This document shows, one piece after another, positions 13,484 to 17,870 of a stretch of 17,870 nt of DNA; positions within the stretch are counted from its first letter, which is position 1; each line of letters opens with the position of its first letter. The notes below the pieces were generated by a model that worked only from the letters and a program-made list of their open reading frames with translations, did not search any database and had not been told where the DNA came from. The stretch comes from Anaerolineae bacterium (GTDB lineage: Bacteria > Chloroflexota > Anaerolineae > JAAYZQ01): assembly GCA_016929795.1 (NCBI GenBank), contig JAFGIA010000221.1:1-17870 (forward strand). The letters run 5' to 3'. Position numbers and translations under genes: made by a program.

Positions 13484-14383
13484 TCACTCCGCGTTCCGGT
13501 CAAGGAACGCCAAGACCGTCGCGGCCAAGGTTTCGCCCTTGTCCTCCTGCAGAAAATGCCCACCGCCCTGAATAGTGGTATGGCGCTGACCTTTCGCGCC
13601 GGGAACTAGCCTTTGAAAGACTCTGTCTCCACCACGAGTGATTGGATCGCCGTCACTGAAGGCAGTCAGGAAGGGTTTGTCCCATCTCTTCAGCACTTCC
13701 CAGGCGTCTCGATTGGCCTGGGAAGCTGGATCGTCGGGTGTGGTTGGCACCAACGAGGGAAAGGTGCGCGCGCCTGCTTTGTACGCAGCGCCTGGAAAAG
13801 GCGCATCATAAGCGGCCAGCACTTCTTTGCTCAGTTTGGTTGCTGTTCCCATTTGCAGGATGCGGCCGACAGGGAGAATGGGGGAAAACTTGGAAAACGC
13901 CTGCCAGATCTTGAAAGCCTTTGGTAGGTCCCCATCGCCGGTTGGCAACCCACCATTCGCCAAGACAACCCGGCCGAACAAGCCTTGATGCGCAGCCACC
14001 AGGCGAAGGCCGATCAACGAGCCCCAATCCTGGCAGACCAGCGTGATATTGCTCAGGGCCATCTCTTGCAGCCATTCAGACATCCAATCGACATGGTTTT
14101 GATAGGAATAGTCCCGGCGCGAAGCCGGTTTGTCCGACTTGCCAAAGCCAATCAAGTCTGGCGTAACTGCCCGGAAACCAGCCTGCGTGAATATCGGAAT
14201 CATCTTGCGATACAGGTAGGACCAGCTCGGCTCTCCATGCAGCATCAGAATAGGATCCCTCGTTCTCGGACCCTCATCTACATAGTGAAGGCGCAAGCCA
14301 TTGGTGAGTTCAAAGTAATTCGCTGAGAAGGGATAATCCGGCAAGCTCTCGAAACGGGCTTCATCTGTTCTTAGAATTCTCAT
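13484..14383 (-). CDS. Haloalkane dehalogenase (subfamily I-like)
   Basis: A 299-residue alpha/beta hydrolase that would cleave carbon-halogen bonds by an Asp nucleophile, releasing an alcohol and halide. Residues: HGEPSW at 49-54 with Glu51, nucleophile Asp119 followed by Trp120 in CQDWGS, a possible second halide-binding Trp160 in the cap, catalytic acid Asp246 in SDGDPITRGG, and His276 in GGGHFLQED. Motifs and order match DhlA-type enzymes (HGEP, QDWG). The ATG at 14383 is chosen over an upstream in-frame start because the protein then begins MRILRTDEARFESLPDYPF, the standard family N-terminus, and GAGGA sits 5 bases upstream. It is the last gene of a four-gene minus-strand unit, 31 bp after the previous one. 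Confidence 0.88.
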   Translation of the reverse strand: MRILRTDEARFESLPDYPFSANYFELTNGLRLHYVDEGPRTRDPILMLHGEPSWSYLYRKMIPIFTQAGFRAVTPDLIGFGKSDKPASRRDYSYQNHVDWMSEWLQEMALSNITLVCQDWGSLIGLRLVAAHQGLFGRVVLANGGLPTGDGDLPKAFKIWQAFSKFSPILPVGRILQMGTATKLSKEVLAAYDAPFPGAAYKAGARTFPSLVPTTPDDPASQANRDAWEVLKRWDKPFLTAFSDGDPITRGGDRVFQRLVPGAKGQRHTTIQGGGHFLQEDKGETLAATVLAFLDRNAE

Positions 14384-14414
14384 GGCTTCCTCTTGGCAAT
14401 CCAGTTTTCCGGGC

Positions 14415-15518
14415 CTAGTGGATCTTTGCGGCCTGACAACCTGTACCCTCAACCTTGGAGGGAACCGGATCATCTACGAGTGTTGCGCGCAGAATATCCG
14501 CAATCAACTCTGGCTCATCCACCTGAAGATAGTGATCCGCACAGGGGATGCGCCAATATGCTGCCGGAGCGTCTCGGTCTTGAAGGTATTCCGCCCATAC
14601 GTAATCGGGCACGGCAACCGGCGCAACGGCATCCAACTCACCCCAAATGATGGTCGCCGGGACATCGCTCCTCTCCAGCGTCTCTAGCCAGGCGATCTCA
14701 TTTTCCGTTCGCTCATTCAAGTACTTGATGATGTCGTGTTGCACACTGTTCCCGGCTTGATAGTCAAAGATGGATGCATACGCATCAATCTCGCTTTGGG
14801 GTAGTTGCCTGGCAAAGACTTGCTCGGCTAATTCGCTAGCCAGCATATCCCCGCTCACCAAGGATGAGACTAACCGACCCAGGGTTGGGCTCAGGAGCGC
14901 CTTTTGCCCGGTCGTCAGCTGCGCCAAGGGCAGGTAGATGTTGCCATTGGTAATGAAGTGGTGCTCGATCGTATATGGTCTCTCGTCATACGTCTGGTAG
15001 ATTTGCAGCAAGGCCAGGCCAACGCTGTCGCCTTTGTCATGCGTAAGAAGGGCAAACTCCTCCAGACCGATCACTTGACGAATGTATTCATCCACCAGAC
15101 GGGCATCGTCAAAGATGGAATACTCGTACCCGTTCTTGGGCTTGTCTGAAAACCCATAGCCGGGTGTATCCAGCGCACAAACATAATACTCTTCACCAAG
15201 TTCTTGCATCAGGTCAGCATAATCAAAGCTCATGGTCGGGTAGCCGTGGATCATCAGAATGGCCGGATTATCCGGGTTGCCCTGGCAGACATGGAAAATA
15301 TGCAACGCGTCGAAGGTTTCGTTCACTGGCAGGGTGGATTCCCAGGCAAAGTACTCACCAGCCTGGCACCATTCGAGTGCGGCAGCGGGAGGGTTGTCCA
15401 TCTCGGCATAGAATTCCATGCAGGATCGGGATTGGTCGCCTGGTCGCACCACAATGAAGGCGATGGCAATGATCAGGAGTAGGGCGAGCGCTATGAGGAC
15501 AAGAGTTCTTCTCTTCAT
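14415..15518 (-). CDS. Membrane-anchored alpha/beta hydrolase with Asp nucleophile
   Basis: A 367-residue protein with an N-terminal membrane anchor or uncleaved signal (residues 5-24 after KRR), so the catalytic domain should lie outside the membrane. The hydrolase core has HGYP at 91-94, nucleophile Asp161 in LTHDKGDSVG, acid Asp296 in WGELDAVAP and His329 in ADHYLQVDEPE. An Asp nucleophile puts it with haloalkane dehalogenases and epoxide hydrolases, but Lys replaces the Trp that normally follows the nucleophile in dehalogenases, so dehalogenation is doubtful. Five Cys residues (33, 51, 78, 114, 326) suit an extracytoplasmic enzyme. GGAGAG sits 3 bases before the ATG. The tail (about 351-359, PVPSKVEGT) resembles a translated short repeat. 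Confidence 0.8.
   Translation of the reverse strand: MKRRTLVLIALALLLIIAIAFIVVRPGDQSRSCMEFYAEMDNPPAAALEWCQAGEYFAWESTLPVNETFDALHIFHVCQGNPDNPAILMIHGYPTMSFDYADLMQELGEEYYVCALDTPGYGFSDKPKNGYEYSIFDDARLVDEYIRQVIGLEEFALLTHDKGDSVGLALLQIYQTYDERPYTIEHHFITNGNIYLPLAQLTTGQKALLSPTLGRLVSSLVSGDMLASELAEQVFARQLPQSEIDAYASIFDYQAGNSVQHDIIKYLNERTENEIAWLETLERSDVPATIIWGELDAVAPVAVPDYVWAEYLQDRDAPAAYWRIPCADHYLQVDEPELIADILRATLVDDPVPSKVEGTGCQAAKIH
14446..14462. repeat. Short inverted motif in the hydrolase 3' end
   Basis: CCCTC-AACCTTG-GAGGG is a small imperfect palindrome at the extreme 3' end of the membrane hydrolase gene. It is translated as SKVEG in that gene. From memory, similar PSKVEG-coding stretches recur in Chloroflexota genomes; no second copy exists in this window, so the repeat status is inferred. 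Confidence 0.35.
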
Positions 15519-15536: not shown

Positions 15537-16598
15537 TTACGGAACTGGGATAACGATCTGCATGCCGTCTTTACCAACAGAGATCTCTCCAGTGTAGGAC
15601 TCTCTCACAGGGTCTCGGAAAAGCCTATTCGCCTGCGATGTGCCTTGTGGTTTTGGCGCCAGGTGGTTTAGCGCGAGATGCTGCACGTTCGCCTCTTGCG
15701 CCAATGCACCGACATCGCTGACATCCATATGGTAATCTCGGATGTCGAAGAGAAGGCTAGCCTGGTCCTCATACCCAAGTTCTCGATTGATGTCTTCTAT
15801 GGTTTCCACCACCCTCTTGTTCATCGCTTCTGCAACGAGCAAGTCAGCGTTCCGGCTGTGTTGCAGCAGCGAAGTGGTGCGCACGGTATCGCCAGATAGA
15901 ACGATTACCTTGCCCGCATATTCGATTCGGTAGCCAACGGAAGGTTCGACGGGGGCATGGTTGACCCGAAACGCCTTGACCGTCACTTCATCGCGTTCGT
16001 AGATCACGATCGCCGAGTCATCGGTCGGGGGCTCGAATTCGATCGGCTCGGATGGTGCCCACTGTGGCGGCATGAGTTCCTCGCCATGGTGGGCGGTGCG
16101 ATAGCTTTCTTCCAGTTCATAAGCAGCTTGAAAGCCATCCACGATTTGGGTGATCCCGGTGGGGCCATACACCGGCAGGATCTTGCGCCGGCCCCAGATC
16201 CAGGACCACTCCATCACGTCACCCAGATCAGCGTAATGATCGTTGTGAAAATGGGTAATGAAAACGGCATCCAATTCGTCAAGTGGAAAATTCAAGCTGT
16301 TCATGACGTCCAGCGTATTGTTGCCGGCATCGAACAACAGGAATTGACCATTGACAAAAACGGCTGTAGAGGTCTGGGGGCCCGCTTGCGCAAGCGGGCT
16401 GCCTGTGCCGACCAAAACGATTGTGATCCGGTCGGTGCGCTGCAGTTCATCTGCCGTTTCGCTGGCTTGGTCCTGGTTGTTGATGATCGTGCGGCGCAGC
16501 GCTCCTTCAACGCCGTTGCTCCGCAGAAAGAGCAGGCCGATGGCAAGAACAGCGATGATAACAACTGTCCCGCCGACAATGATGTTTCGTTTGGTCAT
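15537..16598 (-). CDS. Membrane-anchored metallo-beta-lactamase-fold hydrolase
   Basis: A 353-residue protein with an N-terminal membrane segment (about 5-25) and a metallo-beta-lactamase fold. The zinc motif HFHNDH gives His116, His118, Asp120 and His121; further ligands are His214 (VNHAP), Asp237 (LSGDT) and His312 (LNHLAP). The set and the SGDT motif resemble RNase Z/arylsulfatase-like (AtsA) members rather than antibiotic-hydrolysing enzymes. All expected ligands are present. With the membrane anchor, it should act outside the cytoplasm; the substrate is unknown. AGGAGA sits 5 bases before the ATG. It starts 38 bp after the TetR-dehalogenase fusion gene and ends 18 bp before the membrane hydrolase, so these genes look co-transcribed. 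Confidence 0.88.
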   Translation of the reverse strand: MTKRNIIVGGTVVIIAVLAIGLLFLRSNGVEGALRRTIINNQDQASETADELQRTDRITIVLVGTGSPLAQAGPQTSTAVFVNGQFLLFDAGNNTLDVMNSLNFPLDELDAVFITHFHNDHYADLGDVMEWSWIWGRRKILPVYGPTGITQIVDGFQAAYELEESYRTAHHGEELMPPQWAPSEPIEFEPPTDDSAIVIYERDEVTVKAFRVNHAPVEPSVGYRIEYAGKVIVLSGDTVRTTSLLQHSRNADLLVAEAMNKRVVETIEDINRELGYEDQASLLFDIRDYHMDVSDVGALAQEANVQHLALNHLAPKPQGTSQANRLFRDPVRESYTGEISVGKDGMQIVIPVP

Positions 16599-16636: not shown

Positions 16637-17860
16637 CTACTCTGTTTCTGAGTATTCGTCTTGGACCGTGGCCGCGATGAATTCGTTGATACGACGGGCA
16701 ATTTCCTCGCCCTGGTCATCCTGTAAAAAGTGACTGGCTTCTGGCAGGCGCACGTGGTCCCAGCCGGCCGTACCGGGTATGTGATCCAGCAGCGCCTGCT
16801 GGACCATCGGCCGGCCAAGATTGCCGGGGTCGTTGCCGCCCCAGATCGTCAGGAACGGCTTCTCAAACCGCCCCAGCGTCTCCCAGGCGGCCTGCGTCAC
16901 GCCCGGCAGTTGATTAACCAGGCCGGGGAAGGCGCGGGGTCCTCCCATGTAAAGGCGCGACGGGAAAGGCGCGTCATACGCCGCCCGCTCGGCGTCTGAG
17001 AGCGGGAAGTAGGTCATCGCCTCGACGATTTGCGACGCTACAAACCGTTTATCGTTGCGCGCATAGTCGATCCAGACGCCAAACGCGCCCGGCGACGCAC
17101 TGCTGACGCGCGTGTTTTGCAGGTTGCCCTCGGCATCATAGAACGCCGGCTGCTGTGGCGGAATCGACGTGATCGTCTGGTAAAAAACACGGCGCGTCAA
17201 CTGCGGCACGGCGGGCAGCTCAAACGGGGTGCTGCCCGCCTCAAAGACCGGCAGGAAGCCGTTGCCGACGACCACACGGTCGAACCAATCCGGGTTTGTG
17301 CCGACGACGCGCAGGCCAATCAGACTGCCCCAGTCCTGCACAAAGAGGGTTAGGTGCGTCAGTTCGAGCGCCTGGATGAACCGTTCCAGCCGGTCGACGT
17401 GACCCAGATAGGTGTAGTAGTCGGGGGCGATTGGCTTATCGGAGCGGCCCATGCCCAGGTGGTCCATTGCGATGACGCGATGCCCCGCGGCCGCCAGCAC
17501 AGGGATCATCTTGCGGTAGAGATACGACCACGACGGCTGACCGTGCAGCAAAAGGATCGTCTCCTCGGCATCGGCCGGACCGACCTCGACATATCCCTGG
17601 CGCAGGCCGTCGAGTTCCACATACCGGACCTCGTACGGCCAGTTGGGCAGATTGTCAAAGCACGCGTCAGGTGTGCGGACGAACTCGACGCCGGCCGGCG
17701 TCGCCAAGATTTCCGGCTCGTCCGGCAGACAGAGGCGCTGCTTCGCTCCGCGGATGCTCACCCCCTCCAGCCCTTCCTGCCGCAGCAACTCGAGGGTTGC
17801 ATCGAGAATGCGTCCCCGCATCTCCTTGATTTCTTGTTCTGTCCTTTTGGCTCGTGGCAT
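16637..17860 (-). CDS. TetR N-terminal fragment fused to a haloalkane-dehalogenase-like hydrolase
   Basis: 407 residues with two unlike parts. Residues 1-40 are the start of a TetR regulator: basic tail, helix 1 (IKEMRGRILDATLELLRQEG) and the beginning of helix 2 (GVSIRG), after which the recognition helix is missing. From about residue 45 a haloalkane-dehalogenase-like enzyme follows: FVRTPDACFDNLPNWPY, HGQPSW (106-111), nucleophile Asp176 with Trp177 in FVQDWGS, acid Asp344, His377 in EASHFLQDD. The family's usual Glu/Asn in HGxP is Gln108, which may alter halide binding. An extended cap lies at about 208-290. GGAGG sits 5 bases before the ATG, at the very edge of the window, so the fused product is probably translated. 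DNA binding should be lost. Confidence 0.85.
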   Translation of the reverse strand: MPRAKRTEQEIKEMRGRILDATLELLRQEGLEGVSIRGAKQRLCLPDEPEILATPAGVEFVRTPDACFDNLPNWPYEVRYVELDGLRQGYVEVGPADAEETILLLHGQPSWSYLYRKMIPVLAAAGHRVIAMDHLGMGRSDKPIAPDYYTYLGHVDRLERFIQALELTHLTLFVQDWGSLIGLRVVGTNPDWFDRVVVGNGFLPVFEAGSTPFELPAVPQLTRRVFYQTITSIPPQQPAFYDAEGNLQNTRVSSASPGAFGVWIDYARNDKRFVASQIVEAMTYFPLSDAERAAYDAPFPSRLYMGGPRAFPGLVNQLPGVTQAAWETLGRFEKPFLTIWGGNDPGNLGRPMVQQALLDHIPGTAGWDHVRLPEASHFLQDDQGEEIARRINEFIAATVQDEYSETE

Positions 17861-17865
17861 TCTTG

Positions 17866-17870
17866 CCTCC
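17866..17870 (-). promoter_or_regulatory. Shine-Dalgarno site of the TetR-dehalogenase fusion gene
   Basis: GGAGG on the minus strand, 5 bases before the ATG at 17860. It supports initiation at the TetR-derived N-terminus rather than at an internal dehalogenase start. Confidence 0.65.

Follow-up and report, generated by a model that had tools for sequence, protein, structure and literature searches.

Comparison of its two parts with protein databases confirmed that an ORF at the end of the analysed DNA is a chimera, in which residues 1–37 of a TetR/AcrR-type regulator lead into the mature portion of a haloalkane dehalogenase of the DhlA type. The ORF (16637–17860, minus strand, 407 aa) is open over all 407 codons and lies where the first-pass annotation had placed it. 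The window, i.e. the whole 17,870-nt stretch of DNA analysed, is one complete contig, since its own MBL-fold protein matches P0162, which a protein-database search placed on a 17,870-nt contig. The fused ORF begins at the very end of this contig, with only ten bases of the window lying 5' of its ATG. We lean, if only a little beyond even chances, towards reading the ORF as a real deletion allele formed by in-frame loss between tetR and a dehalogenase gene, and place this reading slightly ahead of an assembly or library artefact. The parts of the fused gene are as follows:

17866–17870 (minus strand): GGAGG, ribosome-binding-like, the last five bases of the contig
17750–17860 (minus strand): TetR stub, codons 1–37, consisting of helix 1 and the first part of helix 2, without recognition helix or ligand domain (41 TetR matches; helix at residues 5–28 in the model)
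17732–17749 (minus strand): junction residues 38–43 (GAKQRL), not TetR by the alignments
16637–17731 (minus strand): mature region of an exported-type haloalkane dehalogenase (HLD-I/DhlA-like), Cys44 to the end, stop codon included

The join was thus placed at about 17750, 121 nt from the contig end and at the inner edge of the range (17725–17750) proposed for it earlier. The residues GAKQRL are perhaps the last residues of the leader region that the dehalogenase has lost. The strong ribosome-binding site reported previously is represented by the terminal GGAGG; these bases may also belong to an in-frame start further upstream (ME..), as they do in the reading of some relatives (ME..M in P0121 and L057). 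The GC3 of the stub (0.68) is lower than that of the enzyme (0.78), the former value coming from 37 codons only.

A search with residues 1–40, which admitted proteins of about 137–437 aa, gave 41 matches at E ≤ 10 among 43 candidates, with 81–95% identity over 93–95% of the 40 residues. All 41 bear the PF00440 domain (40 proteins of 197–216 aa and one of 146 aa), and homology runs through residue 37, in agreement with the initial description of this segment as the first helix and a half of a TetR regulator. The similarity ends sharply after ..GVSIR (residue 37), where the 41 TetRs continue with (K/N)IA(D/E/N)(R/H).GVSHM.LY.YF into the helix-turn-helix and the window ORF differs. Neither the full ORF nor residues 1–45 matched the Pfam TetR_N profile (PF00440), in keeping with the missing helix-turn-helix: the fused ORF lacks a complete one (47 positions in TetR_N). 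It also lacks the C-terminal ligand/dimer domain of TetR, residues 44–407 being dehalogenase, so that the recognition helix and the ligand domain had rightly been described as absent. In the AlphaFold2 model, residues 5–28 form a helix (block pLDDT values of 63, 83 and 74 across residues 1–30) and residues 30–42 are disordered, with pLDDT below 50. Judged from sequence and model together, the stub comprises helix 1 and the first part of helix 2 and lacks the helix that reads DNA. No close relatives of the TetR or of the dehalogenase were found in viral contigs, and the TetRs in plasmids (37 records) were all distant ones, none reaching 60% identity.

From about Cys44 on, the ORF can be aligned over its full length with a haloalkane dehalogenase family and matches the NCBIfam model NF002043 (haloalkane dehalogenase) with 318.7 bits against a cut-off of 265. 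By both sequence and fold, its best solved relatives are DmrA (4mj3), DpcA (6f9o), DccA (5esr), DppA (2xt0) and DhlA, all of them HLD-I enzymes, and entries of these five enzymes occupy Foldseek ranks 1–12. The model of the enzyme is confident over most of its length (mean pLDDT 84.3), and in it the enzyme has the alpha/beta-hydrolase fold with a cap, as in DhlA and DmrA. All positions of the catalytic pentad (D176, W177, W263, D344 and H377) are present and align with those of 4mj3, 6f9o and 5esr; presumably D176 (in the motif QDWG) is the nucleophile, W177 and W263 are the halide-binding tryptophans, D344 is the acid and H377 the base. Among the 120 dehalogenase homologues listed (of 7,916 matches, out of 7,998 candidates scored), D176, W177 and W263 occur in every one, and D344 and H377 in 119. 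In a 32-row alignment of the window enzyme with 31 of these homologues, four of the positions (D176, W177, W263 and H377) do not vary, and D344 hardly does. The catalytic domain is thus intact and is predicted to hydrolyse carbon-halogen bonds.

None of the 120 listed homologues has a TetR-like start, whether sought with the TetR profile or by a search with residues 1–37, and the origin by fusion accordingly stands against the possibility that the whole family shares this N-terminus. In two apparent exceptions, L006 and L033, the match begins at residues 11 and 15, respectively; both were rejected as further TetR-dehalogenase fusions, their extra N-termini being chance extensions of unrelated sequence, with a stop in L033. 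Homologues above 500 aa, considered as a full TetR plus a dehalogenase, were likewise set aside; their N-termini are leaders, internal starts and membrane segments, and the TetR profile matched 0 of 120. Some relatives are about 575–700 aa long (L001 3947–5749, the same as L022; P0003; P0043; P0064; L025 98–1825) and carry at least some 180 additional residues, which in L025 are C-terminal and for which Pfam returned no family; in L001, a TAG stop lies between the dehalogenase and its extra segment. An Anaerolineales MAG has three dehalogenases in tandem (L004 1241–6266), the third being cut by the end of the stretch.

The enzyme had been called complete, which holds for its catalytic domain and not for its N-terminus. 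By a hydropathy rule rather than a signal-peptide predictor, 110 of the 120 listed homologues are strongly hydrophobic before the RTPD motif; seven others have an internal Met start ten residues before RTPD, and three are short (P0018, P0069 and P0094). Residues 1–60 of the window ORF contain no hydrophobic stretch (maximum mean hydropathy 0.48), and the N-terminal hydrophobic leader/lipobox of the exported form is missing. The first-pass annotation recognised the chimera correctly, proposed an origin that the comparisons support and overlooked this lost leader. The cysteines of the exported form are retained: Cys67 is found in 119 of the 120 listed homologues, and Cys44 and Cys67 occur in 32 of 32 alignment rows, the conservation of Cys44 being read from those rows alone, since pairwise alignments reach it in only 15 of the 120 (14 Cys, 1 Ser). 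Leaderless relatives (L023–L026) keep Cys at position 44 and lack Cys67, a pattern that would fit a possible Cys44–Cys67 disulfide in the exported form. Retention of export-type cysteines without the leader suggests that the deletion, if real, would be recent.

If the two parts were once neighbours, relatives in which they stand as adjacent separate genes might be expected, and a search for these was successful. Twenty-three distinct TetR loci were compared, several of them cut by contig ends and the G824 match left out. In three (L025, L026 and L057), a full tetR lies directly upstream of, and on the same strand as, a dehalogenase homologue, which supports the proposed origin by a deletion fusing neighbours. 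In L057, the TetR is 65% identical to P0122, the near-homologue of the stub, and is separated by 119 nt from a leader-bearing dehalogenase 70% identical to that of the window; the TetR and enzyme parts of the window ORF lie at about the same distance from this locus (27 of 37 TetR residues and 250 of 356 enzyme residues identical). In L025 and L026, the gap is about 20 nt and the dehalogenase is leaderless. Of the 23 TetR loci, two (L054 and L058) have a DJ-1/PfpI-type gene in the place of the dehalogenase, and nine have an ABC transporter match further downstream. From the dehalogenase side, the TetR profile was run over 43 loci, some of them mutual duplicates and several only fragments; this added L032, where a TetR immediately precedes a more distant dehalogenase, and L029, where the TetR lies on the downstream side.

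The tetR-dehalogenase pairing holds in some genomes and is not general. In the phylum of G001 (the Chloroflexi MAG of L001), a TetR match at E ≤ 1e-30 was found in 2 of 400 genomes (G225 and G298), and in each of them the TetR gene immediately precedes a same-strand dehalogenase homologue, about 20 nt away. The order of G001 has one match at E ≤ 1e-25 in 154 genomes (G548); the corresponding counts are 1 of 9 in the family of G548 and 21 of 396 in its class, and in the order of G298 there are 3 of 47 at E ≤ 1e-20. The TetR of G548 is 66% identical to P0122, but its genome has no close dehalogenase (best E 3.1e-6). Conversely, the genomes of L001–L005, whose dehalogenases are 64–76% identical to that of the window, contain only distant TetRs (best E 1.6e-12, 27% identity), and no TetR was found beside these dehalogenases within the stretches examined, except for a weak opposite-strand match in L002. 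A possible pairing of TetR P0121 with dehalogenase P0056 on one contig (the longest contig given for either is 2133 nt) was discarded, since one equal value is expected by chance in lists of this length.

The window ends inside the ribosome-binding site, and the promoter and operator region, being off the contig, was read in relatives only. In L057, a 12-of-12 sigma-70 match precedes tetR (the scan gave 3 matches in the region, with 0.5 expected), whereas the gap between tetR and the dehalogenase gave no sigma-70 match. At 1445–1487 of this locus, a candidate TetR operator, the inverted repeat TTTAACAGTG..ACACTGTAAA, lies over the -10 of the consensus promoter before tetR. Candidate operator repeats also precede tetR in L054 (about 1458–1486), L058, L025 and L026. 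In all five the palindrome lies over or next to the -10; the numbers of shuffles (of 1000) reaching its score were 15 for L057, 15 for L054, 0 for L058, 0 for L025 and 29 for L026, so that significance is modest in three of the five promoters. From this layout, TetR probably represses its own promoter and thereby the enzyme in the relatives. It had been suggested that the fusion placed the enzyme under the regulator's promoter, but such a capture is not borne out, since in L057 the promoter already stands before tetR with none in the gap, and in L025 and L026 the gap is only about 20 nt. The dehalogenase was probably under the tetR promoter already, and the change would then be loss of the repressor rather than acquisition of a new promoter.

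These observations can be combined into a deletion model. The ancestor would have had a promoter and a TetR-type operator, then a full tetR, then a dehalogenase with a leader (the exported form). One deletion, of about 0.74 kb on the scale of L057, would have joined tetR codon 37 in frame to the end of the leader; relative to L057, the window is without about bases 1612–2354 (about 743 nt), a stretch that starts at TetR codon 38 and ends just short of the conserved Cys. The remainder of tetR, the intergenic gap and the start and leader of the enzyme would thereby have been lost, whereas the retained tetR promoter, ribosome-binding site and start may drive the fused ORF. With the repressor gone, expression would be constitutive; with the leader gone, the enzyme would be cytoplasmic and would carry a floppy N-terminal tail without DNA binding. 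The allele would probably have occurred in a mixed population. Taken as a whole, the proposal of a one-step "repressor decapitation" allele, which keeps promoter, ribosome-binding site and start, moves an exported enzyme to the cytoplasm, expresses it constitutively and coexists with the intact form, is put forward tentatively, as a possibility that we hold to be distinctly less probable than the deletion itself.

The fused gene is followed by a run of genes on the same strand:

15537–16598 (minus strand): MBL-fold (RNase Z-like) hydrolase with an N-terminal hydrophobic segment, directly downstream of the fused gene
14415–15518 (minus strand): alpha/beta hydrolase with an N-terminal hydrophobic segment, next in the run
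13484–14473 (minus strand): second haloalkane dehalogenase, in which no leader was seen and the profile match starts at residue 31

The ORF start of the second dehalogenase lies inside the neighbouring gene. The match lists of the MBL-fold and fused-dehalogenase families have six contig sizes above 8 kb in common (8461, 16837, 18931, 30389, 33909 and 39727), out of 41 and 27 distinct values in the two lists, whereas 40 offset controls gave no shared value; the MBL-fold family thus appears to share contigs with the dehalogenase family. DJ-1/PfpI, MBL and dehalogenase genes occur in a row in L005, and MBL, tetR and DJ-1/PfpI genes occur together in L054.

The main competitor of a real deletion is an artefact of assembly or library preparation, to which we give a substantial chance, somewhat short of even. 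On this explanation, the last 120 nt or so were added either through a chimeric molecule or through a false step in the assembly graph, at a fork on a tetR 5' end that another locus or strain shares; in reality, tetR would precede a dehalogenase with a leader, or the two would lie at separate loci. That the window is a complete contig with the join 121 nt from its end, about one long k-mer as we interpret it, speaks for this, assembly joins being least reliable there, and chimeric contigs from k-mers common to related genomes are a recognised failure according to an extract of PMC7299287. Moreover, no independent copy of the fusion occurs among the 120 listed dehalogenases or the 41 TetR matches; this absence weighs little, because neither list shows the window's own fusion, though its contig is in the database. 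A random chimera, however, is unlikely, because the join unites natural neighbours in their order, strand and reading frame, and a graph fork needs a k-mer shared across the join, where the L057 alignment reveals no similarity between tetR and dehalogenase. A join made inside one template of about 1 kb would be compatible with both the missing k-mer similarity and the natural neighbours. A contig stop one k-mer past the join would be expected if the tetR 5' end also occurs elsewhere in the sample, and fits a minority deletion allele and a wrong link alike. We counted for a real deletion the neighbour order in L057, L025 and L026, the nearly equal distances to L057, the open in-frame ORF, the exported ancestry of the homologues, the retention of Cys44 and Cys67, and the promoter layout in relatives. 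Counted against it, besides the position of the join and the missing second copy, were the off-contig promoter and operator, the GC3 gap, the modest palindrome significance and the limited occurrence of the pairing.

Even a real deletion need not have produced a useful protein. Within the probability given to it, we regard as unlikely, though deserving some weight, that the fused ORF is a degenerate remnant which is not usefully expressed or folded, the enzyme being on its way out. Loss of the leader with the export-type cysteines kept, the missing second copy (hence no sign of persistence) and the presence of a second dehalogenase in the same gene run would fit such decay, against which stand the 407 open codons, the five catalytic residues and the mean pLDDT of the model. 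That the stub is instead a functional N-terminal module of a standing fusion family, acting as a protein-protein tether or a degenerate DNA-binding domain, seems very improbable: the predicted helix at residues 5–28 is in its favour, but the helix-turn-helix is missing, residues 30–42 are disordered and no listed homologue carries the stub.

The enzyme part of the preferred deletion allele resembles DhlA, DppA and DmrA (HLD-I) in fold (TMt 0.86 and 39% identity to DmrA, 4mj3) and in the alignment of the pentad residues. It differs from the solved HLD-I enzymes by some 50 extra residues (206–257), its family reads HGQP (Q108 in 120 of 120 listed homologues) where the solved HLD-I chains have HGEP, and this family is mostly leader-bearing, the window enzyme being in addition fused to a TetR stub. 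The neighbour pairs of Chloroflexota-class genomes (L057, L025, L026 and, more distantly, L032) have the same gene parts, order, strand and ribosome-binding-site region as the window, but they have a complete tetR and a dehalogenase that starts independently; its leader is present in L057 and missing in L025 and L026.

A parallel is offered by Rhodococcus, in which DhaR is a TetR-like regulator and DhaA is an HLD-II enzyme, unlike the HLD-I enzyme of the window. Poelarends and co-workers reportedly described one strain in which deletion of dhaR made dhaA constitutive and another in which the dehalogenase is fused to a neighbouring gene; that fusion is said to be C-terminal and to the gene of another enzyme, whereas the fusion of the window is to a regulator. 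What the two systems share is the control of a haloalkane dehalogenase gene by a regulator gene, dhaR regulating dhaA in Rhodococcus according to an extract of PMC5605520. Among the titles and abstract openings listed for the literature on haloalkane dehalogenases, TetR fusions and assembly chimeras, none described a TetR-dehalogenase fusion. The fusion is plausible as a minor evolutionary event of a type already known, and a step of this sort, in which one deletion takes away both brake and export address, has been inferred for dehalogenase evolution.

Should the join be an assembly product, it would serve as a warning that fusions at contig ends can look sensible by joining true neighbours. 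In some genomes, the TetR subfamily is tied to exported hydrolases (dehalogenase, MBL-fold and DJ-1/PfpI), and since a candidate operator is visible, the regulation is open to testing. Should the deletion be real, a single event would have stripped a catabolic enzyme of both its brake and its export address in an uncultured group, and the fused gene would show an enzyme of a Chloroflexota-like bacterium in the act of passing from regulated and secreted to constitutive and intracellular.
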